Notes under the pieces: generated by a model
The model's database searches: none
Seen by the model: only the letters and a program-made list of their open reading frames with translations
What the model was told of the DNA's origin: nothing
Origin: a virus
IMG/VR virus record: IMGVR_UViG_3300033141_006329
Span: 124,001-188,000 of that record
Reading direction: 5' to 3' (one strand)
DNA length: 64,000 nucleotides
Program-made: the position numbers and the translations under genes
Shown: piece by piece, positions 18,957-35,565 of the stretch
Layout: the number at the start of each line of letters is the position of its first letter
Position numbering within the stretch: the first letter of the stretch is position 1

Positions 18957-19310
18957 TCAGATAATCACTCCTAAGTTAAATAGATCCATAAGACAATCAT
19001 CCAAATCAATTGTTAAATAATAATTAGACTTTATATTTATAATTAATATATATAAATCCTCAATAGAGTTCAACAACAAAAATTTATCAACTATATTAAT
19101 TAGTTCTAATATCATTCTTCTATCTCTCGTAATAATGTAAATATCTATATATTGCATTATTCGTATAGTTGAAATAATCCCGACTGTTAATGTAACATCA
19201 TTATAATCATAGAGCGCATCGATTCTATCGTAAACATAAACAACATGACCATATTCATCATGTAGTTCTTGCCTGTGTATCTGACAATCCCATTTCCACT
19301 TGCTATTCAT
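18957..19310 (-). CDS. Array-family small protein (last of the block)
   Basis: A 117-aa protein at the downstream end of the array. It keeps the family plan: an aromatic N-terminus (WKWDCQIHRQELHD), a central strand-rich part, a helix, and near the end LTIDLDDCLMDLFNLG in place of the usual IDxLLxxFxEGG. It lacks the EGG residues, as expected because no coupled gene follows. AAGGAGAT precedes the ATG. Function unknown. Confidence 0.75.
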   Translation of the reverse strand: MNSKWKWDCQIHRQELHDEYGHVVYVYDRIDALYDYNDVTLTVGIISTIRIMQYIDIYIITRDRRMILELINIVDKFLLLNSIEDLYILIINIKSNYYLTIDLDDCLMDLFNLGVII

Positions 19311-19322
19311 AAAAATATCTCC

Positions 19323-19757
19323 TTATAATTCAGCTCCTTCCTCAAGTAATATATCAAGTGCATTGTGAACATTTATATGATTGGACGATTGCTCTCGCAC
19401 TAATCCAAAAAGAAGTTCAAAACCATAATGCTCAATATATTTTTCTGCTATTTCCATTAGTACTAAAGAAAATCTATCATCAGAAATTTCAAACCATATT
19501 CCATCAGAACTCCTATTAGAACATTTCCAAATAATTATAGCCCACAAAAATCTTCCAGTACTCATAAATTTATATTTTTTTACAATAATCCAGTTATCCC
19601 CTATATTTTTACTTATACCACCTTTATAAATGTCTCCAATATTTTTATTTATATCATACTTAAATTTTTCATCAAAACATTTTATCACATCATACCCTAA
19701 GAGTGACATCAAATATAGTTCCCAACCAAGTTTTTCATAATCTCCTATATCTACCAT
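19323..19757 (-). CDS. Array-family small protein, YEKLGW type
   Basis: A 144-aa protein beginning MVDIGDYEKLGWEL, with IWFEISDDRFSLVLMEIAEKYIEHYG in the middle and ALDILLEEGAEL at the end. The next gene upstream (19760) has the same N-terminal block and a near-identical last 60 codons (RVYNTLDILLEEGAEL), so the two are a recent tandem duplicate. The start is ATG with GAAGGAG supplied by the upstream gene's last codons. Function unknown. Confidence 0.8.
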   Translation of the reverse strand: MVDIGDYEKLGWELYLMSLLGYDVIKCFDEKFKYDINKNIGDIYKGGISKNIGDNWIIVKKYKFMSTGRFLWAIIIWKCSNRSSDGIWFEISDDRFSLVLMEIAEKYIEHYGFELLFGLVREQSSNHINVHNALDILLEEGAEL

Positions 19758-19759
19758 AA

Positions 19760-20152
19760 TTATAATTCAGCTCCTTCCTCAAGTAATATATCAAGTGTAT
19801 TGTAAACCCTTATACGGTAGGATGATCGTTTTCGCAGTAACTCAAAAAGAAGTTTAAAATTATAAGGTTCAATGTAGTTCTCCATAACATCCACTAGTAC
19901 CAAAGAAAAATCATCATTAGAAACTTCAAACCATATTGTACTAGAATGTTTTCTAATGCGGTCCCAAATAATTATGCCCCAACAATGTTTTCCGGTATCC
20001 CTAAATTTATATTTTCTTATAATAACCCTAAAGTGCTCGGTGTACGCACTTCCTTTTTCAAAATGCCCACCGTAACATTTTTCTAGATCGATTAAATCAT
20101 TAAACGATTTTTTTCTCCAGCCAAGTTTTTCATAATCTCCTAAATTTATCAA
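19760..20152 (-). CDS. Array-family small protein, YEKLGW type (TTG start)
   Basis: A 130-aa protein. The only start that keeps the conserved INLGDYEKLGW block is a TTG at 20152. It shares IWFEVSNDDFSLVLVDVMENYIEPY and a C-terminal LDILLEEGAEL with its downstream duplicate. The ending again encodes GAAGGAG for the next gene. Function unknown. Confidence 0.75.
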   Translation of the reverse strand: MINLGDYEKLGWRKKSFNDLIDLEKCYGGHFEKGSAYTEHFRVIIRKYKFRDTGKHCWGIIIWDRIRKHSSTIWFEVSNDDFSLVLVDVMENYIEPYNFKLLFELLRKRSSYRIRVYNTLDILLEEGAEL

Positions 20153-20200: not shown

Positions 20201-20515
20201 TTACATAATTTGCCCTTCATCTACCACACTTATCAATAATTCATCCTCATTTGTAGTTACCTCCCCTAGATTTAATATAACATCTATCATACTAGGACCA
20301 TATCGATTTATAGCTTCTGATATAATTATTTTCAATTCTTCTCTAAAGGATGATGTAGTATACAAACGAGTAGTTCCATCATAATAATGATTTAAAATAC
20401 CCCAAAAACCTTCATTATAAAATGTATGAAACAACTCTCTAAAGTCATTATGATATTCATCTAAATTGTCCCAACAATTCTCCCTAAAATTATGCACAGT
20501 AATCCATTTATTCAT
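20201..20515 (-). CDS. Array-family small protein, SFREELK type
   Basis: A 104-aa protein. It shares NLDEYHNDFRELFHTFY and SSFREELKIIISEAINRYG with the protein at 24562 (NLDEYYKDHKELFHTFY, LSFREELKIILSEMVEKL), so the two are paralogues about 4 kb apart. The C-terminus lacks the EGG motif (VVDEGQIM). The start overlaps the upstream stop as ATGA. Function unknown. Confidence 0.8.
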   Translation of the reverse strand: MNKWITVHNFRENCWDNLDEYHNDFRELFHTFYNEGFWGILNHYYDGTTRLYTTSSFREELKIIISEAINRYGPSMIDVILNLGEVTTNEDELLISVVDEGQIM

Positions 20516-20901
20516 AAGATAATCCCTTCCTCAAGTAATATATTAAGAGCATCGAGAGTAGTTACATGAGGGCTTATATTATAATCATTGTCCATTGGGA
20601 TATTTCGTATTGTATGCACAAGAGATTTGAAACCATAAATATCAATATAGCTTTCCACTAATTCCAGTAGTACTAAAGCAAAATTATCTTTTGATATTTT
20701 AAACCATACGGCATCATTATTTTTTGTAACATTAGTTATAACTATACCCCAACAAATATTATACTCAGGTCCATATCGAAAGCCCCATTTTCTTACAGTA
20801 ATTTTTCTATCATTGTTAAATTTTTTCACTGTATCAACATACGATGAATAATCATTATATACAGCAACCCAGCCTAAATTCTTATAATCTCCTATATTCA
20901 T
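20512..20901 (-). CDS. Array-family small protein, YKNLGW type
   Basis: A 129-aa protein from the ATG at 20901 (MNIGDYKNLGW), preferred over the upstream in-frame start at 20961, which would run into the membrane-protein gene and breaks the common length. The middle is VWFKISKDNFALVLLELVESYI, and the end LNILLEEGIIL encodes the ribosome site for the coupled gene at 20515. Function unknown. Confidence 0.78.
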   Translation of the reverse strand: MNIGDYKNLGWVAVYNDYSSYVDTVKKFNNDRKITVRKWGFRYGPEYNICWGIVITNVTKNNDAVWFKISKDNFALVLLELVESYIDIYGFKSLVHTIRNIPMDNDYNISPHVTTLDALNILLEEGIIL

Positions 20902-20921: not shown

Positions 20922-21164
20922 TTACCCATCCAAATCTGCATCCAGGTAATCGCCAACCCACCCAATTATAAATACAAGAACAATTGCAAATACCGTAAAG
21001 AAAATACGGTTTGTCATCAGATCCTGAATCATATATCTTTCATAACCACTCTCTACCATATATACAAAGCGACTATAATGCCAAGGAACCCACCAACATA
21101 ATAACCCTATATCTACAAACAATGCTCCCAACTTCCCCTTATGTCTATTTAGAAATTTTATCAT
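20922..21164 (-). CDS. Small membrane protein
   Basis: An 80-aa protein with a basic N-terminus (MIKFLNRHKGKLG) and two hydrophobic segments (ALFVDIGLLCWWVPW; IFFTVFAIVLVFIIGWVG), ending acidic (LDADLDG). It is not an array-family member, but its start overlaps the upstream stop (TAATGA), so it belongs to the same transcript. Function unknown. Confidence 0.75.
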   Translation of the reverse strand: MIKFLNRHKGKLGALFVDIGLLCWWVPWHYSRFVYMVESGYERYMIQDLMTNRIFFTVFAIVLVFIIGWVGDYLDADLDG

Positions 21165-21328
21165 TAGTTTTCCTCCAATATTTCATACCAACCACACACC
21201 TCAGCTCTTTCTTGAGCCACAGTTTGTGACATGTCCTCTAACTCCTCATTTGTTATACTATCATCAATCTCAACATCTTCATATTCTTTTTGGTGACCTC
21301 TCCAAGAATACCAATATCTTACTTTCAT
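21164..21328 (-). CDS. Small protein MKVRYWYSW, 54 aa
   Basis: The start is placed at 21328, where AAGGAGATAATTAAG precedes ATG; the longer frame to 21388 runs through the upstream gene. The peptide begins MKVRYWYSWRGHQKEYED and is acidic afterwards (DSITNEELEDMSQ), ending GWYEILEEN. I do not recognise it. It is coupled to the membrane-protein gene. Confidence 0.65.
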   Translation of the reverse strand: MKVRYWYSWRGHQKEYEDVEIDDSITNEELEDMSQTVAQERAEVCGWYEILEEN

Positions 21329-21341
21329 CTTAATTATCTCC

Positions 21342-21485
21342 TTACATATGTCCAAGTGCGTAAAATATCCCTGACAATACTGTGGCAATCAAAGCAATAA
21401 ACAACCCATCAATATCCTGTGTCCCTATAGAAGCAATAGCTCCACACATCAAACACCCTATATTTAACATTACCCAATTATTCAT
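21342..21485 (-). CDS. Small hydrophobic protein, 47 aa
   Basis: The peptide MNNWVMLNIGCLMCGAIAS continues with two hydrophobic stretches, GCLMCGAIASI and LFIALIATVLSGIFYALG, and ends GHM. The ATG has GGAGGAAAAATA upstream, and the stop lies 13 bases before the next start. Probably a small membrane protein of unknown role. Confidence 0.6.
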   Translation of the reverse strand: MNNWVMLNIGCLMCGAIASIGTQDIDGLFIALIATVLSGIFYALGHM

Positions 21486-21499
21486 TATTTTTCCTCCAG

Positions 21500-21961
21500 T
21501 TAAATAATCATACCACTCAAATCTCCCAATAACATATCAATATCCAGCCTCATAATATTATCGTCGCAACCTATAATATCAGAAACACAATCAGCATTCT
21601 CCATCTTCCTATCTATATAATTCATGATGTCATTTCCTAGTTTTTCCTTCAACGGGAAATGAGAAAGGGTTAATATGTTATCTAAAAATATATTAATCAT
21701 AGCATAAGAGGAGGAGTGATAATAGATACCATTCCTATGTATACAGATATGTACCCCACCTCCTTTTCGTCTTTCTTCTTCTAAAAAGAATATACCCACG
21801 CCGTAGATATTTATAGTGATATACCAATGTTGTGAGATACAAGCTTCCCACACACCAACACGGATATTTTTCCACTCTAATTTATCACGCCGTTTCCTAT
21901 GTACAAATTCATTATCCATAAATTTTCCATCCCTAACTACAGGGAATTCCATCTTCTTCAT
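21500..21961 (-). CDS. Array-family-like protein, diverged
   Basis: A 153-aa protein. It has a hydrophobic-aromatic central strand region (WYITINIYGVGIFFLEEERR), a helix (MINIFLDNILTL), and an ending close to the family (MRLDIDMLLGDLSGMII, compare IDIDDLL..EGG). Overlaps its upstream neighbour by ATGA. Assigned to the family by layout and ending only. Function unknown. Confidence 0.65.
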   Translation of the reverse strand: MKKMEFPVVRDGKFMDNEFVHRKRRDKLEWKNIRVGVWEACISQHWYITINIYGVGIFFLEEERRKGGGVHICIHRNGIYYHSSSYAMINIFLDNILTLSHFPLKEKLGNDIMNYIDRKMENADCVSDIIGCDDNIMRLDIDMLLGDLSGMII

Positions 21962-22254
21962 GATTTATTTTCCTTATAGTAATTCTCGATTCTTCTTTTC
22001 TCATCTCTTTCTTTTTCCTCTTCCAAAAATACCTTATCAATAACAGCATCTATACCCTTCTCGATTATACTTCTGACCATTTCGCTATCCTGTCCTTCTA
22101 TTTCTATTATAGACTGTTCTCTTAAAGTTGCCAGCCATCTTTTTCTTTCTTCATATGCACCTGCATCCCAAGCGTCCTGCGCTATTGCCTCTGATCCTCG
22201 AAATCTCCAAGTTAAATTACCTATCCATTTATTCCACCATTCTTTAAATTTCAT
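21958..22254 (-). CDS. Charged helical protein, 98 aa
   Basis: Begins MKFKEWWNKWIGNLTWRF and continues as a charged helix (DAGAYEERKRWLATLREQS, VFLEEEKERDEKRRIENYY). It is not an array-family member by pattern. The start ATGA overlaps the upstream gene's EGGVEL stop region, so it is coupled. Function unknown. Confidence 0.7.
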   Translation of the reverse strand: MKFKEWWNKWIGNLTWRFRGSEAIAQDAWDAGAYEERKRWLATLREQSIIEIEGQDSEMVRSIIEKGIDAVIDKVFLEEEKERDEKRRIENYYKENKS

Positions 22255-22619
22255 AATTCTACCCCTCCCTCAATCATAGAGTCCAGAAAGTTATCTTCTA
22301 TCATCTTATGTATAAACTTGAATATGTTTTTTGTTGGTATAAGGTAGATATTATAATCATCTCCTTCAATATATAAAACTCTGTTTAACATATCCAAACA
22401 TTGGACCAAAGCTTCACTGAGTGGAGTATATTCTGGAGAACAACCATTTGTCAATTGGTCAAATAAACCTTCAACTGTTCCAATTATATGATCCTCAATT
22501 TCCTTCACGTGTCCATCTTCAACATAATATTCAATCTCCACCTTAATAATTTCGTTCGCAAGCAATAGAGGTATCAATTCTTCAAAGTCTAATCCTTCAA
22601 CATTAACTATTGTTGGCAT
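22251..22619 (-). CDS. Array-family C-terminus with different N-terminus
   Basis: A 122-aa protein. The N-terminus (MPTIVNVEGLDFEELIPLLL) is unlike other members, but the end KFIHKMIEDNFLDSMIEGGVEL carries the family EGGVEL and encodes GGAGGGG for the coupled downstream gene. The start has AAGGAG. It lies directly over a truncated family remnant (22607-22696), so the N-terminus may have been swapped. Function unknown. Confidence 0.7.
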   Translation of the reverse strand: MPTIVNVEGLDFEELIPLLLANEIIKVEIEYYVEDGHVKEIEDHIIGTVEGLFDQLTNGCSPEYTPLSEALVQCLDMLNRVLYIEGDDYNIYLIPTKNIFKFIHKMIEDNFLDSMIEGGVEL

Positions 22620-22696
22620 ATTATCTCCTTTTCTTTTTTGAAAACATCACCTGAAAAGTCAAACCAACCTAACGTTCTGTATTTTTCAAGATTCAT
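22607..22696 (-). pseudogene. Truncated array-family remnant, 29 codons
   Basis: ATG at 22696 overlaps the upstream stop. It encodes MNLEKYRTLGWFDFSGDVF, the standard family opening, then runs into charged codons and a stop at 22607 inside the next gene's start. No C-terminal part remains. It looks like a family gene lost after its first 15-20 codons, with the ribosome site of the gene at 22619 (AAAAGGAG) now inside it. Confidence 0.6.
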
Positions 22697-23048
22697 AACC
22701 AACTCCTTGTTCATTATACATACTAAAGATATATTCCACATCGCACCTACTTATAAGAAATTTCTCACTTGCTATATCATAATGTTTTAATATTTTTAAG
22801 AGTGCGTTGAACCCTTTGTTTCTTATAACATGATCTGCTATTTTCATTAATTCCAATCTAAATTCATTACTAAAAATATCAAACCATATTGCTCTACCTT
22901 GGCATGTATGTGATTTCTCGCCTACAATTCCTATATATTTTTGAAGAGCAGATTTTCTTATCCACATCCAATCAGTTGTTGTGCGAAATGATAAATCTTC
23001 AAAACCACATTGTTCCCAACCCCTCATTCTATATTTTTCAAAGTCCAC
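22686..23048 (-). CDS. Array-family small protein, YRMRGW type (GTG start)
   Basis: A 120-aa protein. Aligning with siblings places the start at GTG 23048 (MDFEKYRMRGW), inside the overlap with the upstream gene; a TTG two codons earlier is the alternative. The middle is AIWFDIFSNEFRLELMKIADHVI, and the C-terminus (DVEYIFSMYNEQGVGYES) is diverged. Function unknown. Confidence 0.75.
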   Translation of the reverse strand: MDFEKYRMRGWEQCGFEDLSFRTTTDWMWIRKSALQKYIGIVGEKSHTCQGRAIWFDIFSNEFRLELMKIADHVIRNKGFNALLKILKHYDIASEKFLISRCDVEYIFSMYNEQGVGYES

Positions 23049-23427
23049 AACCAAACCCCCCCCACATTATATTGATTAATAGATCAATATTAATATCGAC
23101 ATTGTTATACCTTTGCATATAATGATCTAGTATATCTGTAACCATTTTTATATTTCCTCTCTTCTCAGACTCTTCGATAATATCTAATAAAACCAAACCA
23201 AACTTATCAGTTCCAATATCAAACCACATGGAACCAGTTGTCGGCCCATCACTTTTCCCGCTAAGAATACCCCATTCCGGAATGTTGTTCAATTTAAATT
23301 TTCGCAGTAGTATCCAATGATTACCAATTACTTTTATCGCATTTATCCTCTGAGATGCTGTTTTGAAATTACTTAGAGCCCAGCCTTTCTTAGCATACTG
23401 TTCAGATATTATATCCTCTAAATCCAT
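23038..23427 (-). CDS. Array-family small protein, YAKKGW type
   Basis: A 129-aa protein with QYAKKGWALSNF, HWILLRKFKLNNIPEWGIL, SMWFDIGTDKFGLVLLDIIEES and an ending INIDLLINIMWGGFGCGL. The poly-G run of the ending serves as ribosome site for the coupled GTG-start gene downstream. A close relative of 23418, 23812 and 24194. Function unknown. Confidence 0.8.
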   Translation of the reverse strand: MDLEDIISEQYAKKGWALSNFKTASQRINAIKVIGNHWILLRKFKLNNIPEWGILSGKSDGPTTGSMWFDIGTDKFGLVLLDIIEESEKRGNIKMVTDILDHYMQRYNNVDINIDLLINIMWGGFGCGL

Positions 23428-23822
23428 ATCGTACCCTCCTCTAAAATTATATCACATACTTTTTCTGCACATACTTTGATAGGATTTGTTGGTATACATC
23501 CTTCTTGTTTGGGATTTTTATTGCGATTCCATATTAAACCTACAACCTCTGAAGTATTATTCTTCTGTTCAGCATCATCTACTATATCCATCAGGATATG
23601 AGGAAAGTCATTATTACTCATATCAAACCATATTGCATTACCATTATACTCGTCGTATAATGGACCTACAATGATGCCCCAATTTGGTATATTTCTTACA
23701 ACAAACCAATGATGACCAGTTTCTTTTACCATATCTAGATTATCAGGATTATATTCTTCAGGGTCATCTTCATTAAGTTTGTTTATTTCCCACCCCTTTT
23801 TCTCATATTTTTCAAAGTTCAT
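23418..23822 (-). CDS. Array-family small protein, YEKKGW type
   Basis: A 134-aa protein from the ATG at 23822 (MNFEKYEKKGWEINKL). It contains HHWFVVRNIPNWGIIVGPL and AIWFDMSNNDFPHILMDIVDDAE, and ends VCDIILEEGTIWI. The start sits in the last codons of the upstream gene (GCNEL), whose GAGGGGG supplies the ribosome site. Function unknown. Confidence 0.8.
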   Translation of the reverse strand: MNFEKYEKKGWEINKLNEDDPEEYNPDNLDMVKETGHHWFVVRNIPNWGIIVGPLYDEYNGNAIWFDMSNNDFPHILMDIVDDAEQKNNTSEVVGLIWNRNKNPKQEGCIPTNPIKVCAEKVCDIILEEGTIWI

Positions 23823-24204
23823 TGCAACCCCCTTCAAATATTATATTGATTGTTTTGTTTAGGTCACTATTTATATTGCAAACCTTTATATTATAAGTCT
23901 TTTTATTATAATGAGTTTGAATATAATCTATTAGTGTTTTAATATCTTTAACATTGTAATCAACAACAATATTAAATAAAACTGAAATAAAATCCTCTGT
24001 TAATATATTAAACCATATTGTGACAGTAGTATCCTCTTTAATTTTTCCAATAATAATACCATATTTATAATGTCCATCTAATCTTCCATTTAATTTTCTT
24101 GCAATAACCCAATGCTCTCCAATTATGGTTGATATGTCTATACTATTAATAAACTTATTTTTGCACCCATCCCAACCCTTCTCAATGTATTTTTCAAAGT
24201 TCAT
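23812..24204 (-). CDS. Array-family small protein, YIEKGW type
   Basis: A 130-aa protein. Two ATGs (24210, 24204) lie in the overlap; 24204 gives the family opening MNFEKYIEKGW. It contains EHWVIARKLNGRLDGHYKYG and IWFNILTEDFISVLFNIVVDY, and ends LNKTINIIFEGGCNEL, whose codons provide GGAGG for the next gene. Function unknown. Confidence 0.8.
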   Translation of the reverse strand: MNFEKYIEKGWDGCKNKFINSIDISTIIGEHWVIARKLNGRLDGHYKYGIIIGKIKEDTTVTIWFNILTEDFISVLFNIVVDYNVKDIKTLIDYIQTHYNKKTYNIKVCNINSDLNKTINIIFEGGCNEL

Positions 24205-24565
24205 AACCATCTCCTTCGAATATTAGATCACACAATTCATCTGTATTTATATCGATACAATGAAGAGAACTACTCATAGAAACTAAGTCTATCAGCCCCC
24301 TAAGAGTATTTTCTTCCTCATGATCTATAATTATATCCAACAAAACAGTGAGGAAATTTTCAGAAGAAATCTTAAACCATATCGATCTTCCAGATCCTAC
24401 ACCTGTCCTACCTATAATTATACCACACTCATCTCCAGTACTAATTCCCCATATCTTTCTTACAATAACCCAATGACTTTCAATTGTTTTTGATATGGTT
24501 ACTGTATTACTGGTAATGTAATCCCGACTGTTCCACCCTAATTTCTCATATTTTTCAAAGTTCAT
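24194..24565 (-). CDS. Array-family small protein, YEKLGW type
   Basis: A 123-aa protein and a good model member: MNFEKYEKLGW, SHWVIVRKIWGISTGDECG, IWFKISSENFLTVLLDIIIDHEEE, INTDELCDLIFEGDGYEL. Predicted strands are followed by one helix and a short acidic ending. ATG overlaps the upstream EGGYQL stop (TTATGA). Function unknown. Confidence 0.82.
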   Translation of the reverse strand: MNFEKYEKLGWNSRDYITSNTVTISKTIESHWVIVRKIWGISTGDECGIIIGRTGVGSGRSIWFKISSENFLTVLLDIIIDHEEENTLRGLIDLVSMSSSLHCIDINTDELCDLIFEGDGYEL

Positions 24566-24888
24566 AATTGATAACCTCCTTCTAATATCCTCATAAGAGT
24601 ATCATCAATATCTAATTCTATAAATAACTCACATCCAGATAAAAATTCTATGGGGAAATCGTCTAGTTTTTCCACCATTTCAGATAAAATTATCTTTAGT
24701 TCTTCTCTGAATGATAATGGTGCTACTATACATAAATTACCACTATAATTATAATCCTTTACACCCCAGCATAATTTGGTTTTCCACCTACTATAAAATG
24801 TGTGAAACAATTCTTTATGATCCTTATAATATTCATCTAAATTTCTACAGTTTCCACAATAATCATTTATTTTCATCCACCCATTCAT
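24562..24888 (-). CDS. Array-family small protein, SFREELK type
   Basis: A 108-aa protein from the ATG at 24888 with TAGGAGGTG at good spacing; a GTG two codons earlier is part of that site. It contains RNLDEYYKDHKELFHTFY, a close match to 20201, then LSFREELKIILSEM and an ending LDIDDTLMRILEGGYQL. It is a distant paralogue of the YEKLGW type with the same ending. Function unknown. Confidence 0.8.
   Translation of the reverse strand: MNGWMKINDYCGNCRNLDEYYKDHKELFHTFYSRWKTKLCWGVKDYNYSGNLCIVAPLSFREELKIILSEMVEKLDDFPIEFLSGCELFIELDIDDTLMRILEGGYQL
24563..24580 (-). promoter_or_regulatory. Example of ribosome site embedded in EGGxxL codons
   Basis: The last codons of the gene at 24562 read GAA GGA GGT TAT CAA TTA TGA. 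GGAGG lies 8 bases before the ATG of the next gene, which shares A-T-G-A with the stop. The same layout recurs across the array. Confidence 0.8.
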
Positions 24889-24897
24889 TTTCACCTC

Positions 24898-25263
24898 CTA
24901 TAGATTTATTCCTTTATTATATGACTCCACACAAAATCTATCTATATCAAAATTGATATAATTATAAAAATATTTTCCAGATGATATGAAATCGCACCCT
25001 GACAATTGTATAGGATTATTAATGATATTGTATAACTTATGTAATACTCCTTTATCAACATAATCTTGAACTAACCTCTTTAAAACCTTTTCAAAATTCA
25101 AACCATATCCATCAAACACAATAGAAGGAGATAGTGGATTCCAATTCCCCTTACATATAGATATATCCCAATATTCAAAATGAGATGCCCAACAAATACG
25201 AATCCCATATTCCTTGTAATTTGTTTCATGCCACAAATATCTAGTATTTGTCCAGACTAACAA
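24898..25263 (-). CDS. Array-family small protein (TTG start)
   Basis: A 121-aa protein. TTG at 25263 overlaps the end of the upstream EGGANC gene; no ATG fits. It contains RICWASHFEYWDISICKGNW and IVFDGYGLNFEKVLKRLVQDYV, and ends FDIDRFCVESYNKGINL. The ending lacks GGAGG, and the next gene has its own separate ribosome site. Function unknown. Confidence 0.72.
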   Translation of the reverse strand: MLVWTNTRYLWHETNYKEYGIRICWASHFEYWDISICKGNWNPLSPSIVFDGYGLNFEKVLKRLVQDYVDKGVLHKLYNIINNPIQLSGCDFISSGKYFYNYINFDIDRFCVESYNKGINL

Positions 25264-25604
25264 TTTGCACCCCCCTCCAATATAATATCCAATGTATCTC
25301 GCATGCTCATCCTAGTGTAACCATAATCGTCATGTAGGTTCACATAGTGAATCCGGTTCAGTAATTCGGCACACCCAAATCTCTCGATATAATCACTTAA
25401 TACATCAAGTAAAATATATTTGAGTTTGTTACCAGTATCCATAAAAATCATAGCTTCCCCACCCATAGATATTTTTCCAATAGATAATATCCAACCATTC
25501 CAACAAGAAGCTTTGGAAATACATATCCAATATTCATCTTTTTTGATATGAGTCCCTGCATAATCCGTAATCCAAGTTAATCCTATATCCTCATTTGATA
25601 TCAT
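25257..25604 (-). CDS. Array-family small protein
   Basis: A 115-aa protein. GLTWITDYAGTHIKKDEYWI and NGWILSIGKISMGGEAMIFMD form the strand-rich half; KYILLDVLSDYIERFGCAELL is the helix; the end is RDTLDIILEGGANC. The ATG overlaps the upstream GGLIL stop (ATTATGA). Function unknown. Confidence 0.8.
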   Translation of the reverse strand: MISNEDIGLTWITDYAGTHIKKDEYWICISKASCWNGWILSIGKISMGGEAMIFMDTGNKLKYILLDVLSDYIERFGCAELLNRIHYVNLHDDYGYTRMSMRDTLDIILEGGANC

Positions 25605-25999
25605 AATATTAATCCTCCCATATCGAACATACTATTTAGTATATCTTCCTCAGCCTCAATATTAATATATTGCGCATTGTTGGAGTTGAGATCGCTAATC
25701 ATCTCAAAAAGCTCTTCGAGCTGATTATTTGTTATACACTTGTCCACGATATTCATGAGAGTATCAAAAAAGTTTTTACAACACAACATGAAAGTTATAG
25801 TATTGGTGGAGTTGGTCTGCCACTGATCTTTATATAATGTTAATCTCCAAGCGTCCTTTCCCATATACCATCCAATCTGCATAATATATCTTCCGTGTAT
25901 TTTGTTATAATTCCCTGCACACTCATTCCAACGATCTGTCATATTTCTTATCACTTCTTCGCCCAAATTCTTAAATAAACCCTTCTTTCGAATAATCAT
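25601..25999 (-). CDS. Array-family small protein
   Basis: A 132-aa protein with an extended basic N-terminus (MIIRKKGLFKNLGEEVIRNM), then IGWYMGKDAWRLTLYKDQW, FFDTLMNIVDKCI and an ending AEEDILNSMFDMGGLIL. The last five residues are shared with the upstream 74-aa member. ATGA overlap on both sides. Function unknown. Confidence 0.78.
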   Translation of the reverse strand: MIIRKKGLFKNLGEEVIRNMTDRWNECAGNYNKIHGRYIMQIGWYMGKDAWRLTLYKDQWQTNSTNTITFMLCCKNFFDTLMNIVDKCITNNQLEELFEMISDLNSNNAQYINIEAEEDILNSMFDMGGLIL

Positions 26000-26539: not shown

Positions 26540-26541
26540 GT

Positions 26542-27359: not shown

Positions 27360-27491
27360 TCAATAAATCTCACCTTTATTATTAATCAACTGTATCATTG
27401 TCTCTAATTTATATGGAAAATCTACCATATCCTTTCGTGCTAAACCGTCCCAAATTCTATTTTCTTCTTTCCTCCATTCTTTTTCGGTCAT
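27360..27491 (-). CDS. Small charged protein, 43 aa
   Basis: Opens MTEKEWRKEENRIWDGLARK and continues to a stop at 27360. GGAGGGATATAATATATT precedes the ATG, and the stop TGA runs into GAGGAG for the next gene. No family assignment. It fills what otherwise looks like a gap in the array. Confidence 0.55.
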   Translation of the reverse strand: MTEKEWRKEENRIWDGLARKDMVDFPYKLETMIQLINNKGEIY

Positions 27492-28781: not shown

Positions 28782-29094
28782 ATCCTTTCTCCATCAAACT
28801 GTTTATATTCTCATCGATATTGATTTTCACAACAATTTTATGCAGATTTCTCATCATCATTGTTACACCTTTAAAATCATGAAAAATTTGATCCCCTATA
28901 GCATCACGTATTTCATACTTAAAATCTATGGATGATTTGGGAGGAATCTTGAACCAGAAAAGATTTATAATACAACCGCCTCCTCTAAATACTTCACGTA
29001 GGCTCACACACCAGTAAACATAATCAACCGCAGAGATAGATAGGGTGTGGTCGCCATAATTAAAGCGTATACCATTCTCACATTTTTTCCACAT
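28771..29094 (-). CDS. Array-family small protein, MWKK type
   Basis: A 107-aa protein from the ATG at 29094 (MWKKCENGIRFNYGDH), which lies in the end of the upstream gene; the longer frame to 29139 lacks a ribosome site. Its paralogue is 30207 (MWEKFYNGMWFAYDKD). Both have IRDAIGDQIFHDF or LRDIIGKQIYQDF, then an ending VKINIDENINSLMEKGYEL. Function unknown. Confidence 0.8.
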   Translation of the reverse strand: MWKKCENGIRFNYGDHTLSISAVDYVYWCVSLREVFRGGGCIINLFWFKIPPKSSIDFKYEIRDAIGDQIFHDFKGVTMMMRNLHKIVVKINIDENINSLMEKGYEL

Positions 29095-29455
29095 ATTGCG
29101 CCCCTTCCTCTGACATATTATAAAATAAAGATTCCACACTCATGTCGATATTAATAATAATACCATTGGGATTATGTGTTTTTACAATATTTAACATTTT
29201 TGCACGGAATGTTTCGACTGATTTTGATTTCAAATTCTCATATATAATATCCAACAAAATAGGAATAAAATCATCATTTATATTTTTGAATATAATAGCA
29301 ACGCCACTATAATCTTCGTATCCAATAGCTATTCCCCAACCAGATCCTAATCCATACCTGATTGCTATCCAATATGCCCCTACTCTTGTGCCCATCCCAG
29401 TATGCCCATATTCTACAGACCAGCCTTCCCTTACATAACACGAAATATCATTCAT
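29078..29455 (-). CDS. Array-family small protein, duplicate of 30555 gene
   Basis: A 125-aa protein: MNDISCYVREGWSVEYGHTG, then YWIAIRYGLGSGWGIAIGY, AIIFKNINDDFIPILLDIIYE. The protein at 30555 has WGIAMGYTDCKGLAIIFEKV and TDFIPLLLDIVEQY. Both are followed by an MWxK-type gene, so the two-gene unit has been duplicated. Function unknown. Confidence 0.82.
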   Translation of the reverse strand: MNDISCYVREGWSVEYGHTGMGTRVGAYWIAIRYGLGSGWGIAIGYEDYSGVAIIFKNINDDFIPILLDIIYENLKSKSVETFRAKMLNIVKTHNPNGIIINIDMSVESLFYNMSEEGAQYVEKM

Positions 29456-29844
29456 GTCCTTCTTTCCCTCCCCAATAAAATGTTTCCAATGTATCCTCCA
29501 ATCTCACAGCAATAAAATCTTTATTATTTTTTATAAAGTTATAAAATTTATCATAATTTTTTTCAATAGCCTTCTCAACAATAAGTATTATTTCGCCAGG
29601 AAATTTATCATCTGAAATTTCAAAATCAATACCACCAATAAAAGTGTTACCATTGTCTAATTTCAAACGAAGGGATCCATCAGAATTACTTTCCTCCCAA
29701 AAATCTAAAAAAATACCACCCATCCGTCCACATGATGCAATAATTATTCCCCTCATAAACAAGATCATCACCCTCAGCAGGGCTCATCTGCGCTTTTCCT
29801 TCCTTTATATGAGCATAATATTCATACATCTCATTTGAGTCCAT
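29448..29844 (-). pseudogene. Frameshifted array-family gene
   Basis: Frame 1, from the ATG at 29844 (MDSNEMYEYYAHIKEGKAQM), runs to YCIMWTDGWYFF and then stops at 29686. The other frame continues LDFWEESNSDGSLRLKLDNG, EISDDKFPGEIILIVEKAIE and an ending VRLEDTLETFYWGGKEGHE. Together they make one family-like protein. The break lies at a run of seven A on + (29707-29713; T on the coding strand). It is a real frameshift, slippage or a sequencing error. Confidence 0.65.
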
Positions 29845-30220
29845 AACAACCTCCCTCAAAAAATTCTTGTATAACCAAATCAAATACATCATATTTGTAA
29901 TCATAAGATGTATAAGGAGCAATTGTCTCATATAAATCCTCTACAGATCCAGACCTTAAAAATTCTGTCATTAGATCCAATAATATATACATGAAATCAT
30001 AATCATTTGTATTAAATACGATATATTTGCAACCAAAAGCGAATTCAGATCCTCGTATAGTCCTCTTAATATTTGATGTCATTATAGCAATCTTGGTGGG
30101 ACCAAAACTATTGACATCATACATGACCCCTATAGTATATGGATTTTTTTCATAAAAGAATCTTTCTCCATGATCCTTAACGGACCAACCAAAATCAATA
30201 TAATGTTTAACATTGTTCAT
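29831..30220 (-). CDS. Array-family small protein
   Basis: A 129-aa protein: MNNVKHYIDFGWSVKDHGER, YTIGVMYDVNSFGPTKIAIM, YIVFNTNDYDFMYILLDLMTEFL, and an ending LVIQEFFEGGCYGLK. A family member by the FGWSV opening, the helix and the EGGC ending. It lies between the MWEK gene and the frameshifted gene. GAGGGAGG in its end serves the next start. Function unknown. Confidence 0.8.
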   Translation of the reverse strand: MNNVKHYIDFGWSVKDHGERFFYEKNPYTIGVMYDVNSFGPTKIAIMTSNIKRTIRGSEFAFGCKYIVFNTNDYDFMYILLDLMTEFLRSGSVEDLYETIAPYTSYDYKYDVFDLVIQEFFEGGCYGLK

Positions 30221-30554
30221 ATGACCCTCCCTTCAATAACTCATTCAAACAATTATAGATATCAACATGTATAACCTCATTATAATTATCCTTCATAATA
30301 TCTAGAACACTTTCAAAATCCTGATAAATCTGTTTCCCTATAATATCTCGTAATTCGCATTGAAAAGAATTAGTCATATAAGAAGGCATTACAAATTTTA
30401 TATAAACCATCATCGAGCAACTACCCCTACTATACCAATGCCGATGTTCCAGATATACGCTCTCTTTATATCTATCTTTTTCATATGTTTGCGATATGAC
30501 TATCTCATCTTTATCATATGCGAACCACATGCCATTATAGAATTTTTCCCACAT
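30207..30554 (-). CDS. Array-family small protein, MWEK type
   Basis: A 115-aa protein: MWEKFYNGMWFAYDKDEIVI, FQCELRDIIGKQIYQDFESV, IHVDIYNCLNELLKGGSYEQC. Paralogue of 28771; each is preceded by an FIPxLLDI-type gene. It starts immediately after the upstream stop, with AGAGGGGAAGAT as ribosome site. Function unknown. Confidence 0.8.
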   Translation of the reverse strand: MWEKFYNGMWFAYDKDEIVISQTYEKDRYKESVYLEHRHWYSRGSCSMMVYIKFVMPSYMTNSFQCELRDIIGKQIYQDFESVLDIMKDNYNEVIHVDIYNCLNELLKGGSYEQC

Positions 30555-30917
30555 TTATCTTCCCCTCTCTAATATATCAAAAAGAAATTTATCTATATCA
30601 ATTTTTATATAAACAGTACTACCTATACAAAGATCATTTAGAACTATATCTATCAATGTGGATTCTAACTTATGTAGTGTATTTGTCTGTATATATTGTT
30701 CTACAATATCCAATAATAGAGGAATGAAATCAGTACCAACTTTCTCAAATATTATAGCAAGTCCTTTACAGTCTGTATATCCCATAGCAATTCCCCAGCC
30801 ACAACAATTAACTCCACATATCACAGCCACCCATATATCATCAATATTTTTATACATACCCACCCCATGCCTACTATCAAATATCCAATCATTTCTGCGA
30901 TATTGTTCTAGATTCAC
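30555..30917 (-). CDS. Array-family small protein, YRRNDW type
   Basis: A 120-aa protein: MNLEQYRRNDWIFDSRHGVG, WVAVICGVNCCGWGIAMGYT, AIIFEKVGTDFIPLLLDIVEQY, IKIDIDKFLFDILERGR. Its pairing with 30207 mirrors the 29078/28771 pair. The ending has decayed to ERGR but AGAGAGGGG remains as ribosome site. Function unknown. Confidence 0.82.
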   Translation of the reverse strand: MNLEQYRRNDWIFDSRHGVGMYKNIDDIWVAVICGVNCCGWGIAMGYTDCKGLAIIFEKVGTDFIPLLLDIVEQYIQTNTLHKLESTLIDIVLNDLCIGSTVYIKIDIDKFLFDILERGR

Positions 30918-31216
30918 AATTCACCTCCCTCAGCCATAAAATTCAAAATACTTTCATCGTCCATAAACAGACCACCACCATCATAATTCATAATATTGTT
31001 GATATTCAAATTCACATCATCTATAGCCTTGCGTAAAATATTTTCAAGTATATACATAAAATCATTGTGATATTCTTCATTCATAAGAAAAACAAAACGT
31101 ACTAAAAACGTAATACCATCAGATATATCCAAACCAGGATAATAACCAGTGAAACAATTCCTCAATCCTATATTTATCTGATATTTTTTATAAGGTGTAT
31201 ATATGTTACTAATCAT
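30914..31216 (-). CDS. Array-family small protein, DDESILN type
   Basis: A 100-aa protein from the ATG at 31216, which overlaps the upstream stop (TAATG). It contains YQINIGLRNCFTGYYPGLDI and EEYHNDFMYILENILRKAID, and ends LFMDDESILNFMAEGGEL. Its neighbour 31216-31560 has the same plan (YPGMYIDDGIEI, MDDESILNCIMSEG), so the pair is a tandem duplicate. Function unknown. Confidence 0.8.
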   Translation of the reverse strand: MISNIYTPYKKYQINIGLRNCFTGYYPGLDISDGITFLVRFVFLMNEEYHNDFMYILENILRKAIDDVNLNINNIMNYDGGGLFMDDESILNFMAEGGEL

Positions 31217-31560
31217 TATAATTTCTCCCAATATCCTTCACTCATTATACAATTTAAAATACTTTCATCATCCATCCACATTTTACACAACTCTTTACTA
31301 TTCATCTCATGGATCAAAATCTTCATATTAATATCTATAGAATTAATAGCTTTTTGTAGAGTTGAATTGAGTATATCCATAAATTCAGGATGATATTCCT
31401 CATCCATATAGAAGACAGGAGTAGCTATAATTTCAATACCATCATCTATATACATTCCAGGATATTCAGGACCAGCACAATCTTTCATACATATGTGTAT
31501 ATTGTATTTGCCATATTTTTTACTTTCGTATTTTTCTATCTCATATTCGTACGATCTCAT
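31216..31560 (-). CDS. Array-family small protein, DDESILN type
   Basis: A 114-aa protein from the ATG at 31560 (MRSYEYEIEKYESKKYG), with AAGGAGGATTATA upstream; the longer frame runs back through the RNA-ligase-like gene. It contains YNIHICMKDCAGPEYPGMYI and EEYHPEFMDILNSTLQKAIN, and ends WMDDESILNCIMSEGYWEKL. The GAAGGA near its end precedes the next start. Function unknown. Confidence 0.78.
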   Translation of the reverse strand: MRSYEYEIEKYESKKYGKYNIHICMKDCAGPEYPGMYIDDGIEIIATPVFYMDEEYHPEFMDILNSTLQKAINSIDINMKILIHEMNSKELCKMWMDDESILNCIMSEGYWEKL

Positions 31561-32308
31561 TATAATCCTCCTTCTTAGGATACCAATTCCATATAGCTTC
31601 TTCTCCCGATCTCTCAGGCAGATATATACCATCCCTTTTATCCAGCCTAACATATTTACATAAAAAATCAACTACCCATCTTCTATCACCTCTCTTATTT
31701 ATTACCTTATTCCGTTCAACTCGCCATACGGCCCCCTCCACCTCATCAATGGCTCCATGGAATCCATACTTACCTAATCTTACCATTATATCAGCCACAG
31801 ATATAGCCCCACCAACATGAAGGATATGAGGAGTTATGAAATCGAATTGTCCTACTCTTGATTTTAAATCATTAAAAAGAATGCGCTTATAATTGGAAAA
31901 TAAATCAAATGTAACAAATGGTTCATGCGTTAGATTATATCTTGTACTATGAGCTTGTGCTAACCACTCTCCGCAAATCCTCTCATCATTATTAAGAAGC
32001 TCATCAAAGCGAGTTCTATTCCTCTCAACCCAATCAGCAAAAAATCGATGTTGTTTATAATCAGAGCTAACGGCTAAATAACCTGCTCTTATGAGAGGGT
32101 ATATTATTCCATCCTTTTTTGCTACACCGACATTTGTTCCGTCCAATTTTTCCAGGACAGTTATTAAATCATGTTCGTCTCTGGTCTTTTTTATAGCTAT
32201 ATTTCCTTGTCTCTCAGGACAATGATGATCACCGTATCCTGTTCTACTGTTGGGTAGATGCGGAATGTGACCATAACATTTAATTCCTAACGGTTTTTTA
32301 GGTCTCAT
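31541..32308 (-). CDS. RNA-ligase-like nucleotidyltransferase
   Basis: A 255-aa ATP-dependent ligase-type protein from the ATG at 32308 (MRPKKPLG), which overlaps the upstream stop. Nucleotidyltransferase motifs are in order: I, EKLDGTNVG (Lys54); III/IIIa, ICGEWLAQAH and FVTFDLF; IV, VEGAVWRVE; V, VDFLCKYVRLD. This fits Rnl2-like RNA ligases, which seal RNA nicks and may counter host tRNA cleavage. It lies inside the small-gene array and shares its translational coupling. A small DNA ligase is the alternative. Confidence 0.75.
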   Translation of the reverse strand: MRPKKPLGIKCYGHIPHLPNSRTGYGDHHCPERQGNIAIKKTRDEHDLITVLEKLDGTNVGVAKKDGIIYPLIRAGYLAVSSDYKQHRFFADWVERNRTRFDELLNNDERICGEWLAQAHSTRYNLTHEPFVTFDLFSNYKRILFNDLKSRVGQFDFITPHILHVGGAISVADIMVRLGKYGFHGAIDEVEGAVWRVERNKVINKRGDRRWVVDFLCKYVRLDKRDGIYLPERSGEEAIWNWYPKKEDYNEIVRI

Positions 32309-32600
32309 ATTGTTTCCCTTCATACATAAAATCAATATCATGATATTCAAAGTAACTATATTTTTCCAATACATTTAAAAATCCACTCTTATCACCCACA
32401 TCAACCAGAGCCTCAATAAATTCTTCCGCCTCCTTAACATCAAAGTTTTTTAACATACCAATGTGTGTTTCGGTCGTTTCTCTCATATCATGATATATAA
32501 TATAACAACCAGGATGATTACATAAAATAACAGATAATTCCGAATTCTCCTGACACGATACCTTATCTTCCCAATGACTATTGATAATATTTGAGTTCAT
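32298..32600 (-). CDS. Array-family small protein, YFEYHDIDFMYEG type
   Basis: A 100-aa protein: ELSVILCNHPGCYIIYHD, MLKNFDVKEAEEFIEALVDV, and an ending LEKYSYFEYHDIDFMYEGKQ. The last about 20 codons are almost identical in DNA to those of 32597 and of the LRR gene at 33906. It overlaps the ligase-like gene downstream by 11 bases. Function unknown. Confidence 0.8.
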   Translation of the reverse strand: MNSNIINSHWEDKVSCQENSELSVILCNHPGCYIIYHDMRETTETHIGMLKNFDVKEAEEFIEALVDVGDKSGFLNVLEKYSYFEYHDIDFMYEGKQYET

Positions 32601-33094
32601 AATTCAACTCCTTCATACATAAAATCAATATCATGATATTCGAAGTAACTATATTTTTCCAATATATATTGAAATCCTCCTCTACTGCACCCATTGATTA
32701 ATATCGTGATAAATTCTTCCGCTTCCTCAACATCAAAGTTTTTAAGTATACAAATATGTCTTTTCCCTGAGTATAAAATATAATGAGTCAATAACCAGCA
32801 ACCAGGATATTTGTTCAAGAAGACAGATAATTCTTTGTTCTCACAATACATTTTGTGAGTTTTCCAACTACCAAATCCTACCGCTTTCATAATAACTTCC
32901 CCCTCATTCATAATAATCTCAAATAACTTCTCATAATCAATATTCACAGAATGCATTTGATAATTAGTATTATTAAAATCATCTCGTTCTATAGTGAACA
33001 TCATCTTTACTGCACCACTACCGACTTTCCAATTTCGAATAACCATATCAAATCTCCCTTCAATAATATCATTAACTAATGTAACATTACACAA
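32597..33094 (-). CDS. Fused array-family protein, two partial modules
   Basis: A 165-aa frame (TTG start at 33094). Residues 1-68 end in VNIDYEKLFEIIMNEGEV, a family C-terminus. The frame then runs without a stop into MKAVGFGSWKTHKMYCENKE and a complete YFEYHDIDFMYEGVEL-type module. GAGGGGGAAGTTATT lies before the internal ATG at 32890, so the second module could be translated on its own. It looks like two neighbouring genes joined in frame after deletion of the first gene's N-terminus. Function unknown. Confidence 0.68.
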   Translation of the reverse strand: MCNVTLVNDIIEGRFDMVIRNWKVGSGAVKMMFTIERDDFNNTNYQMHSVNIDYEKLFEIIMNEGEVIMKAVGFGSWKTHKMYCENKELSVFLNKYPGCWLLTHYILYSGKRHICILKNFDVEEAEEFITILINGCSRGGFQYILEKYSYFEYHDIDFMYEGVEL

Positions 33095-33476
33095 GTTGAT
33101 ATCCCTTCCCCGAAAACCCTTCTAATAACTCATAGATTTTTATCCTTACTGTATGTGGTGATACAGGATGGTGATCATATATTAGGTTGTCAGTTTCGTA
33201 AGGTTTTAAAGTCTGTTCAGACATTAGAAATATAAGATGCTCGTTAAAAGCTTTGTATTTTTTATCCGATAACAATATATCAAATACCAATACCTTACGA
33301 GGGAGGGTATTATGATTAGTATAAAATCTAATTGTTGGAAATGTGTTATTAACCATCATCCAAATCTCATAATATAAATCCTGTAATACATAAGCACCTA
33401 TAGGGCAATATTTCCATGTTACACCATTAATATTAATACTCTTCTCACAGTTATCAGATCCCGATCGATTAATCAT
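33087..33476 (-). CDS. Array-family small protein
   Basis: A 129-aa protein from the ATG at 33476 (MINRSGSDNCEKSININGVT), inside the upstream gene's GGCQYD ending, with AAGGGAGGATG as site. It contains WKYCPIGAYVLQDLYYEIWM and VLVFDILLSDKKYKAFNEHL, and ends IKIYELLEGFSGKGYQLV. Placed in the family by layout. Function unknown. Confidence 0.72.
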   Translation of the reverse strand: MINRSGSDNCEKSININGVTWKYCPIGAYVLQDLYYEIWMMVNNTFPTIRFYTNHNTLPRKVLVFDILLSDKKYKAFNEHLIFLMSEQTLKPYETDNLIYDHHPVSPHTVRIKIYELLEGFSGKGYQLV

Positions 33477-33909
33477 ACTGACATCCTCCCTTATAAAAAA
33501 TATCAAAAAGAATATGTAGAGAAGTATGTGCATTATATACTTTTCTGACCCCAGTAAAATCAAAACGATCTATAGGAAATCTATCAATATGCACTAATGC
33601 ACTTCGGCCTATTTCCAATATTTCCCCATGAAACTTGTCATTAATTGGTTTGAATAATATGGACAATATTGTAGTTCTTGGAGATGGCTCATCTTGATTA
33701 TAACCCCATTTTCTTGTAGGATTTACCTTAGAGATATCCAACATCGATATGAATATATACACTATATGTGGTCTGCATACAATACCTGCCTCTAATGTGT
33801 AACCATTGTATTTTCTCTGATATCTGCCAGAAGTTTTGTTCCATTTTATCTCACCCTCTTTTAAGGTCAGATAAGAATAATCAAATATATCAACATACAA
33901 ACTTTTCAT
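33469..33909 (-). CDS. Array-family small protein
   Basis: A 146-aa protein: MKSLYVDIFDYSYLTLKEGE, a strand-rich half (YTLEAGIVCRPHIVYIFISM), ILFKPINDKFHGEILEIGRS and an ending LHILFDIFYKGGCQYD. Its ATG overlaps the LRR gene's stop (GAATTATGA). AAGGGAGG in its end serves the gene at 33476. Function unknown. Confidence 0.78.
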   Translation of the reverse strand: MKSLYVDIFDYSYLTLKEGEIKWNKTSGRYQRKYNGYTLEAGIVCRPHIVYIFISMLDISKVNPTRKWGYNQDEPSPRTTILSILFKPINDKFHGEILEIGRSALVHIDRFPIDRFDFTGVRKVYNAHTSLHILFDIFYKGGCQYD

Positions 33910-34880
33910 AATTCAACTCCTTCATACATAAAATCAATATCATGATATTCAAAGTAACTATATTTTTCTAGTGTGCGCATGAATTGTTGTTCACCACCGA
34001 CTGCAAACAATGCTACAACGAAATCCTTTGCTGTTCTGATGTCAAAGTTTTTTAACACAGCAATATTTAAAAGAGATGTTGAACTTAGTCGCTTGGTATA
34101 TGTCAACTCAAAACAGCCAGGATATTTGTATAAATTAATAGATAATACGCGATGGTCGTAACTCGTGCAATTATCATACCACTCATCGCCAAATGCCGTG
34201 CCCCCGACACTCTTAAGCTTTTGAAGTTTACCTTCCTTAGTCAAAGATAATAATTTGGCAAATGTATTTACATCGTACCGACCATTAAACGTTTCTATAT
34301 TTTTTAATTTCGAAAGAGGTTCATAAGGAATATCTAATCTCTTATTGAAATCAACACTAAGATATTCTAAATTTTCTAACTTGCCTAGAGTATTCACAGA
34401 AGTTGCCGCACCACCATACAAATAAAGATGTTTTAACGACCTAAGATTTTTTAAGAAAGACATATCCATAATCTCACCGTTATTTAAAGATAAATATAGC
34501 GATTGTAATTGATTCAATTTCCCAATGTGCGACACACAACCAGAACAATTTGTAATTTTCAAAAAAGTCAGATTTGGAAGTAAAGATAAGAAAGGTTTAT
34601 CCCCTAAATCGAAATTTCTCATGGTGAGAGATTTTAAATTACTTAAAGTATTTATATTACTGAGATCCCATTTATCAATGCAATAATTTGCCCCTGATAT
34701 ACTCAATTCTGTCAGAGATTTAAAATATGGTAATATATTCGATAAATCTCTATTATTGCATAATCCAATGCTATCTATATGTTTCAAATGAATAGGTAGG
34801 ATGGTTCCATTTTTTGATAACCCGTTCTTTTTTCTTATCAACCTTCTTGCACTAAGTCCTTCAATGTTTAAACTCTTCAC
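33906..34880 (-). CDS. Leucine-rich-repeat protein fused to array-family domain
   Basis: A 324-aa protein. Residues about 25-210 are leucine-rich repeats (LPYFKSLTELSISGANY, LSNLKSLTMRN, LPNLTFLKITNC, LNQLQSLYLSL, LRSLKHLYLYGG, LENLEYLSVDF). Residues about 230-324 are a YFEYHDIDFMYEGVEL-type array domain (INLYKYPGCFELTY, VLKNFDIRTAKDFVVALFAV). LRRs usually bind proteins, so the fusion suggests the array domain works with a protein partner. Coupled by overlaps on both sides. No signal peptide seen. Confidence 0.85.
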   Translation of the reverse strand: MKSLNIEGLSARRLIRKKNGLSKNGTILPIHLKHIDSIGLCNNRDLSNILPYFKSLTELSISGANYCIDKWDLSNINTLSNLKSLTMRNFDLGDKPFLSLLPNLTFLKITNCSGCVSHIGKLNQLQSLYLSLNNGEIMDMSFLKNLRSLKHLYLYGGAATSVNTLGKLENLEYLSVDFNKRLDIPYEPLSKLKNIETFNGRYDVNTFAKLLSLTKEGKLQKLKSVGGTAFGDEWYDNCTSYDHRVLSINLYKYPGCFELTYTKRLSSTSLLNIAVLKNFDIRTAKDFVVALFAVGGEQQFMRTLEKYSYFEYHDIDFMYEGVEL

Positions 34881-35200
34881 AATTCAAATCCTCCCTCATT
34901 CATAATCTCTAATACGTCATATAGATCATAATGATCCCCGTTTTTCCTGTTCATGACATCAACCAAATTCTTTATGCTTCTTGTTTCCATAAATGAGGAT
35001 AATATTTTGGCTAATTCGTTGTCAAATCTTTTCGGCATATTGTAAAAATATAGTTTAAGAAATCTTCCACCCCTACTCAGATATACAAGTCTATGATTTG
35101 AAAATGTAAATGACCCAACCCATAAAGAACTTTTCCGATTATTACTTGATATCATATCAGAATGTTTTCCCACACTGCTTTCCTTCCAAATCAATTTCAT
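34877..35200 (-). CDS. Array-family small protein
   Basis: A 107-aa protein: SSLWVGSFTFSNHRLVYLSR, LKLYFYNMPKRFDNELAKIL, YDLYDVLEIMNEGGFEL. It has the standard family layout with an ATGA overlap onto the LRR gene's start. GAGGGAGG in the end is the LRR gene's ribosome site. Function unknown. Confidence 0.8.
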   Translation of the reverse strand: MKLIWKESSVGKHSDMISSNNRKSSLWVGSFTFSNHRLVYLSRGGRFLKLYFYNMPKRFDNELAKILSSFMETRSIKNLVDVMNRKNGDHYDLYDVLEIMNEGGFEL

Positions 35201-35565
35201 ACCCAGACTCCCTCAAAATAAAATTGTTGTACAAGATGTTCTACAATACATACAGATATTCTTGTATTTGTTTTAATATTTTTTATTAACTCAAGATTCT
35301 CCTCGATAATTATAAAAGGTTGTAGTATATCCATTATCTCACAGTAGAATATATCATTTCCAATATCAAATAAGAAGTATGCACTAGTACTACCATCATA
35401 ACTTATTCTTGCCCACCATGTTTCAGGGGATATTGTACTTAAAGATATGGTAGCATTTACATTAAATTTAGAATTGGTTCTATATGTAATATAACGTTTC
35501 CTGCTATTGTTATTACTATAAGATTTGATTGTCCATGTTATACCATTTCGTTTGAAACGATTCAT
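35197..35565 (-). CDS. Array-family small protein (first of the block)
   Basis: A 122-aa protein from the ATG at 35565 (MNRFKRNGITWTIKSYSN) with TGGGAGACCTT upstream. It contains WWARISYDGSTSAYFLFDIG and IFYCEIMDILQPFIII, and ends IVEHLVQQFYFEGVWV. It is the most upstream member of the block, 105 bases after the ligA terminator, so a promoter for the array could lie between 35566 and 35670; no GGACAAAC motif is there. Confidence 0.78.
   Translation of the reverse strand: MNRFKRNGITWTIKSYSNNNSRKRYITYRTNSKFNVNATISLSTISPETWWARISYDGSTSAYFLFDIGNDIFYCEIMDILQPFIIIEENLELIKNIKTNTRISVCIVEHLVQQFYFEGVWV

Follow-up and report, generated by a model that had tools for sequence, protein, structure and literature searches.

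Introduction

That giant phages can carry large paralogue families, one of them structural, is already known from SPN3US with its head proteins and from phage G with its zinc ribbons. The giant Salmonella phage SPN3US packages the 20-member paralogue family B in its head; gp138-154 are encoded in tandem, with the other members elsewhere, and the copy number of the family differs between related phages (PMC5694885). Bacillus phage G carries a zinc-ribbon expansion of about 35 copies (PMC7824862). Here we describe arrays of small genes in the IMG/VR virus record IMGVR_UViG_3300033141_006329 (223,370 bases), starting from a stretch of 64,000 nucleotides that comprises bases 124001-188000 of the record and is called the window below; positions are those of the window unless they are given as record positions. 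Array 1 (18957-35565, minus strand) contains 45 open reading frames (ORFs), 33 of which belong to one superfamily, in a single block of mostly overlapping genes. The superfamily itself, its size and its genetics appear to be new.

The locus resembles SPN3US family B, whose roughly 20 paralogues likewise belong to a single jumbo phage and are mostly encoded in one tandem block (PMC5694885). Unlike the array proteins, those of family B are 265-498 amino acids (aa) long and are virion proteins, and their genes are separated by short gaps rather than overlapping. We rejected family B as a homologue, as the hhalign probability was 0.1% and the best hmmsearch hits included no SPN3US protein. The zinc ribbons of phage G are likewise a case of one small domain that expanded in a lineage-specific manner in a single giant phage (PMC7824862), but they belong to a known fold class, whereas the superfamily described here has neither a cysteine pattern nor a known family.

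The window encodes a major capsid protein, a tail sheath protein and further phage genes, and the record apparently represents a jumbo tailed phage. Known phages (Bacillus phages AR9 and PBS1, Staphylococcus jumbo phages and others) match the capsid protein at no more than about 25% identity. The closest capsid relatives are three IMG/VR records at 71% identity, and two more records are 52-54% identical.

Superfamily membership and genomic distribution

Nearly all ORFs of array 1 lie on the minus strand. They encode products of 75-150 aa, the size that a first-pass annotation of this interval, made from the letters alone, had given; the probable first start codon is the ATG at 35565. The same annotation proposed about 40 paralogues of one family, divided into at least six subtypes. 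We used iterative hmmsearch on a set of 258 proteins of the same phage and 258 shuffled versions of them, with 13 aligned sequences of the YEKLGW subtype as the first seed. Rounds one, two and three recovered 31, 47 and 53 array genes, respectively, plus one solitary gene outside the arrays (record 19556-19912), and up to round three no shuffled sequence and no other non-array gene was found in this set. Round four admitted one false positive, an apparently unrelated protein at record 13908-14198, and counts were therefore taken at round three.

A search seeded with the SFREELK subtype converged on a nearly identical set, and a profile-profile comparison of the YEKLGW and SFREELK subtypes gave 95% probability across 91 columns. 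The subtypes YEKLGW, SFREELK, VWD, MWEK and DDESILN thus merge into one superfamily by iterative profile search, while the sixth proposed subtype, YFEYHDIDFMYEG, has no sequence link to it in profile-profile comparison or in searches with full-length and tail-cut proteins. The idea of one large family therefore stands, with a lower count: at round three the superfamily takes in 33 of the 45 ORFs of array 1, and the remainder includes an RNA ligase, a leucine-rich repeat protein and a probable membrane protein. Mean pairwise identity across the superfamily is 19%. Neighbours within arrays are 23.5% identical, compared with 20.2% when the gene order is randomized (p = 0.0002), which shows that the local tandem groups noted in the first pass are real.

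The first-pass annotation was limited to the interval of array 1, and two more arrays lie beyond it, as does the solitary copy. Array 2 (59344-64000 of the window, continuing to record 194785, minus strand) has the tail sheath gene on one side and the tail tube gene on the other, and array 3 lies at record 217889-223370, where the record ends. Direct search of the whole record with a profile of 29 sequences (profile A5) gave 42 matches. The record as a whole, of which positions 40001-104000 were covered by profile searches only, encodes about 53 superfamily members and 12-13 members of a second family, KG, with three proteins common to both lists. The arrays take up at least 33 kb of the 223 kb record (about 15%) and consist mainly of diverged copies of a few small proteins.

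The shared ending and the next ribosome-binding site

The first-pass annotation regarded the common ending of these proteins as a signature of the family. This ending, EGGxEL or KGxEI, occupies the position that is needed for the ribosome-binding site of the next gene, and GAGGGAGGGGTAGAATTATGA may serve as an example: it reads E-G-G-V-E-L-stop as protein, and GGAGG followed by the next ATG as DNA. Where the overlap between genes is 8-20 bases rather than 4, the glycine is shifted relative to its own stop codon and tends to hold its distance to the next start. Glycine is encoded by GGA or GGG at 95 of 116 positions within the last 14 residues, compared with 156 of 335 in the protein bodies. 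Overlapping junctions are frequent in the arrays (66 of 91, 31 of them as ATGA) in comparison with the rest of the phage (31 of 133). In the EGGxEL ending, the codons thus largely spell out the following gene's ribosome-binding site. That site does not account for the upstream segment of the tail, hydrophobic-D-x-D-x-L-L, and the tail glycine is also retained where a member and its next gene do not overlap. For these two reasons the ending is probably under a joint protein and RNA constraint.

Because the tail is partly ribosome-binding-site coding, we repeated the membership search after cutting the last 16 residues off every protein. At round two, 38 array genes and the solitary gene were still joined, which means that 38 of 39 matches fall in arrays (hypergeometric p ~1e-17), and no shuffled sequence was recovered at the inclusion threshold. 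The final round retained 29 of the 45 ORFs of array 1, and we conclude that the main superfamily is real. The MWEK subtype joins from the YEKLGW seed only if tails are included, but is retained without them from the SFREELK seed. The tail alone was accordingly rejected as the source of similarity within the main superfamily, but it is what links the superfamily to the KG family of array 2. Without tails, profile searches thus join 38 array genes at round two, though not the KG family or the YFEYHDIDFMYEG domain.

Predicted fold, conservation and charge

The member at 24194-24565 was modelled with 28 paralogues as the alignment (mean pLDDT 85, pTM 0.75). The model contains a helix at residues 4-8, five antiparallel strands (12-16, 21-28, 31-38, 46-53 and 59-65) and three helices (71-84, 88-98 and 108-116), a topology that can be written as H-E5-H3; the single fold expected by the first-pass annotation is therefore predicted with confidence for a superfamily representative. 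Foldseek found no match to this model at E <= 0.001 in PDB or BFVD. The best PDB matches were to C1QBP/p32 (E 0.11, TM about 0.3) and the best BFVD match had E 0.0066 and TM 0.35. C1QBP/p32 and Pur-alpha were considered as fold relatives and rejected, with TM values of about 0.3-0.5 and poor superposition.

Scans of 29 members against Pfam, NCBIfam, PHROGs and PADLOC gave no consistent match, each match being to a single member (best E 0.0033). A sequence search of solved structures gave a best E of 0.0045, to an engineered protein, with no pattern across matches, and Rfam gave no match. The statement that no described family has this signature is thus in agreement with all of these databases, none of which gave a convincing match.

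The best-conserved columns of the superfamily alignment are W, F, G, W, F, L, L and I, all hydrophobic or glycine, and the conserved core can be summarized as two W, I-x-F, F-x3-L-x2-I, LL and G. The top polar column is a glutamate at 56%, which lies within the ribosome-site tail, and the next polar column reaches 43%. The alignment contains no conserved polar residue outside that tail, hence no candidate active site, and no conserved cysteine column, hence no paired-cysteine zinc-ribbon motif. From the alignment we infer that the conserved columns represent a structural core without an active site, and since no polar residue is conserved outside the tail, these proteins are probably binders rather than enzymes.

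The superfamily is acidic, with a median isoelectric point (pI) of 4.96 and a net charge of -4.0 per 100 aa compared with -1.0 in the other small proteins of the phage. The charge varies among members: 43% are at or below -5 per 100 aa, the upper quartile is 0, and the 90th percentile of pI is 8.5.

The KG family and the YFEYHDIDFMYEG domain

In array 2 the KG family predominates; its strand-helix plan is similar to that of the superfamily. It joins the superfamily only via the tail, and the link is lost when tails are cut. The model of a KG protein (pLDDT 72) has five strands and a C-terminal helix and no match in PDB; the likeness of the two predicted plans suggests common descent of the KG family and the superfamily.

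The YFEYHDIDFMYEG domain occurs in five to seven copies in the record, alone or behind leucine-rich repeats, and has no family match in Pfam and PHROGs scans. Leucine-rich repeats are present in three proteins of the window, one inside array 1 and two outside the arrays, the latter (51769-52584 and 55641-56639, both minus strand) having C-terminal parts that are weakly similar. Within 32317-33986, the 3' ends of genes 32298, 32597 and 33906 show 82-93% DNA identity across 68 bases, which suggests that the YFEYHDIDFMYEG tail was recently duplicated or exchanged among them.

Relatives and insertion sites

The first-pass annotation proposed looking in related phages for arrays of variable size. 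Profiles A1 and A5 gave no credible match in the relatives with 71% capsid identity or in five further records. No homologue outside the record was found in phage, viral and bacterial collections, where pattern-based scans are weak for proteins as diverged as these and may pass over near-identical records. Scans of viral contigs and genome contigs with single proteins and close subgroups returned no relatives. A tblastn search of phages gave no match for two members, and only leucine-rich repeats were matched, in two Listeria phage records.

The arrays define insertion sites, in the capsid region and at the sheath-tube junction, that lend themselves to comparison between relatives. In one relative the sheath and tube genes are adjacent, with 0.2 kb between them; in a second relative the gap is 1.6 kb and contains four small minus-strand genes, and here it is 16.6 kb and contains array 2. 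From the capsid gene to the next shared gene the distance here is 23-26 kb, compared with 5-9 kb in relatives. The arrays are islands in otherwise collinear phage DNA. Endonuclease-like genes are found at or near both sites; those adjoining the arrays here (17385-18806 and 57611-58621) are of the DUF559/DUF7487 class, and one relative has two endonuclease-like genes at the site of array 1.

Relative G003 has four small minus-strand genes at the sheath-tube site (111725-113097) without significant similarity to the arrays; two of them are among the best non-self matches of the two array profiles, at non-significant E values of 0.13 and 0.47. The same relative has thirteen related endonuclease-like genes dispersed across its genome.

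Possible roles of the arrays

The data show a tandem expansion, specific to this lineage, in which fold, reading frames and ribosome-binding sites have been kept. We tentatively interpret its products as a rapidly diverging set of binding proteins that act inside the cell, perhaps counter-defensive or host-directed. According to this interpretation, a small single-domain protein of a jumbo phage underwent repeated tandem duplication inside overlapping operons, and strong divergence after duplication produced about 50 superfamily members and about a dozen of the second family in at least three arrays. The conserved core would hold the five-stranded sheet and helices while the remaining positions vary, so that each copy would present a different surface. 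Most likely the copies would act inside the cell and, as a set, bind and block, decoy or redirect proteins of the host or of competitors, for example defence factors, and new copies would be retained as targets change. Overlap of the genes would allow one transcript to yield many members together. The effector, decoy or immunity role raised in the first pass is compatible with the lack of conserved polar or catalytic positions, with the absence from relatives and with the strong divergence. If the arrays are an arms-race repertoire, they would offer dozens of new binders that point to their targets.

Several points weigh against this interpretation. The predicted superfamily fold is without a functional relative, and outside the tail neither the KG family nor the domain behind leucine-rich repeats joins the superfamily by sequence. 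The absence from relatives rests on searches that have limited power for proteins that are 20% identical, and strong divergence could by itself come from weak constraint. A bolder version is conceivable, although we hold it with somewhat less assurance: the arrays would be a self-diversifying library of more than 60 small binders, with a fold without known relatives, acting as standing effectors against host or competitor proteins, and the duplicated unit would be the domain plus a tail that carries the next ribosome-binding site. Under this proposal a new copy would already be coupled for translation, and the double use of the tail suggests a simple route from tandem duplication to operons that are functional at once.

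Alternatively, the proteins could be virion components, either small head-decoration proteins or ejected head proteins, expanded as in SPN3US, whose packaged paralogues set a precedent (PMC5694885). Arrays 1 and 2 do lie in the structural gene region, adjoining capsid, sheath and tube genes, yet they are encoded on the strand opposite to these neighbours, and terminator-like hairpins part array 1 from upstream genes. Considering also that family B proteins are longer, that their genes are gapped, that they have no profile similarity to the array proteins, and that the relatives form virions without detectable copies, we regard this explanation as unlikely; it overlaps in part with the repertoire of binders, because a protein that is ejected may then act on the host. 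The RNA ligase encoded in array 1 (31541-32308, minus strand; PF09414, E = 5.9e-17) belongs to a class proposed to mend RNA cleaved by RNase effectors (PMC7824862), and this gene together with the strand opposite to the structural genes fits a role during infection better than one in the virion. Also unlikely, and slightly more so, is a near-neutral or selfish expansion, in which homing endonucleases and recombination at accessory sites duplicate copies that then drift with little function. The endonuclease-like genes beside the arrays, and the pair at the array 1 site in a relative, speak for such a process, and the arrays would then show that phages tolerate large gene amplification. About 50 frames are intact and have kept their core residues and ribosome-binding sites at an identity of about 19%, which argues instead for long purifying selection on both fold and translation.

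It is improbable that the common plan unites several unrelated families whose likeness comes from the ribosome-site tail and from a bias in amino acids. The partial coding of that site by the tail, the tail-only link of the KG family and the isolation of the YFEYHDIDFMYEG domain speak for it, but 29 of 45 genes in the interval are joined without tails under a threshold that no shuffled sequence passes, so at most it would be true for the minority families. Ugi, Ocr and Arn are small acidic phage proteins that mimic nucleic acids. The superfamily proteins are also small and acidic, as median pI and net charge show, and could titrate DNA-binding host enzymes in the same manner. Unlike in these mimics, the charge is not uniform and spreads widely across members, and the 50 best fold matches listed include no protein of this kind, which makes this the least probable of the explanations considered.

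Gene content of array 1

All features of array 1 described here are on the minus strand. Two terminator-like hairpins at 35620-35701 have a DNA ligase gene on one side and the array on the other. The first genes of the array are two members at 34877-35565, identified by membership search as are the members below unless stated otherwise. They are followed by a leucine-rich repeat protein with a terminal YFEYHDIDFMYEG domain (33906-34880), two members at 33087-33909, of which only the full-length search recovered that at 33087, the YFEYHDIDFMYEG domain in two stand-alone copies at 32298-33046, without sequence link to the superfamily, and the RNA ligase.

Next are two members of the DDESILN subtype (30914-31560) and six members at 28771-30857, including the MWEK subtype at 28771 and 30207 (recovered with full-length proteins and, from the SFREELK seed, also with tails cut). 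Four SFREELK-subtype members lie at 27488-28781, three VWD-subtype members at 26213-27196, and four members (24562, 24898, 25257 and 25601) at 24562-25999. Five YEKLGW-subtype members occupy 22686-24565, including the protein used for fold prediction. Six small non-member genes at 20922-22619, one of which resembles a membrane protein, were recovered by neither the full-length nor the tail-cut search. The array is completed by two members at 20201-20901 (SFREELK subtype at 20201-20515, YEKLGW subtype at 20512-20901), two YEKLGW-subtype members at 19323-20152 that are 47% identical to each other (alignment and membership search), and the last gene, a member at 18957-19310 recovered in the full-length search only.

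Other observations

The sequence TTTGTCCTTTATAA occurs exactly or with one mismatch at record positions 194992, 194848, 176684 and 167141, in each case intergenic and on the minus strand. These sites are upstream of array 2 (twice, 194992 and 194848), of a leucine-rich repeat gene and of a TnpB-like gene, and the sequence is possibly a phage promoter of minus-strand accessory genes. A 105-106 aa protein type is encoded twice, inside array 2 (61998-62318) and at record 113933-114250; the two proteins are similar, and the copy in array 2 has no Pfam match.

Two adjacent large proteins of 1350 and 1614 aa, encoded at record 27565-36461, look like RNA polymerase subunits by their size and place. 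The homologous stretch of relative G003 is broken up into several ORFs, among which lies an endonuclease-family gene. A 1758 aa protein at 4534-9810, with many repeats of the type WYxGYDGSxYRIxYxEGPDGINWSNH, is probably a tail or adhesion protein. The protein encoded at 41740-42990 is TnpB-like and has a C-terminal zinc-ribbon pattern, as judged by eye.

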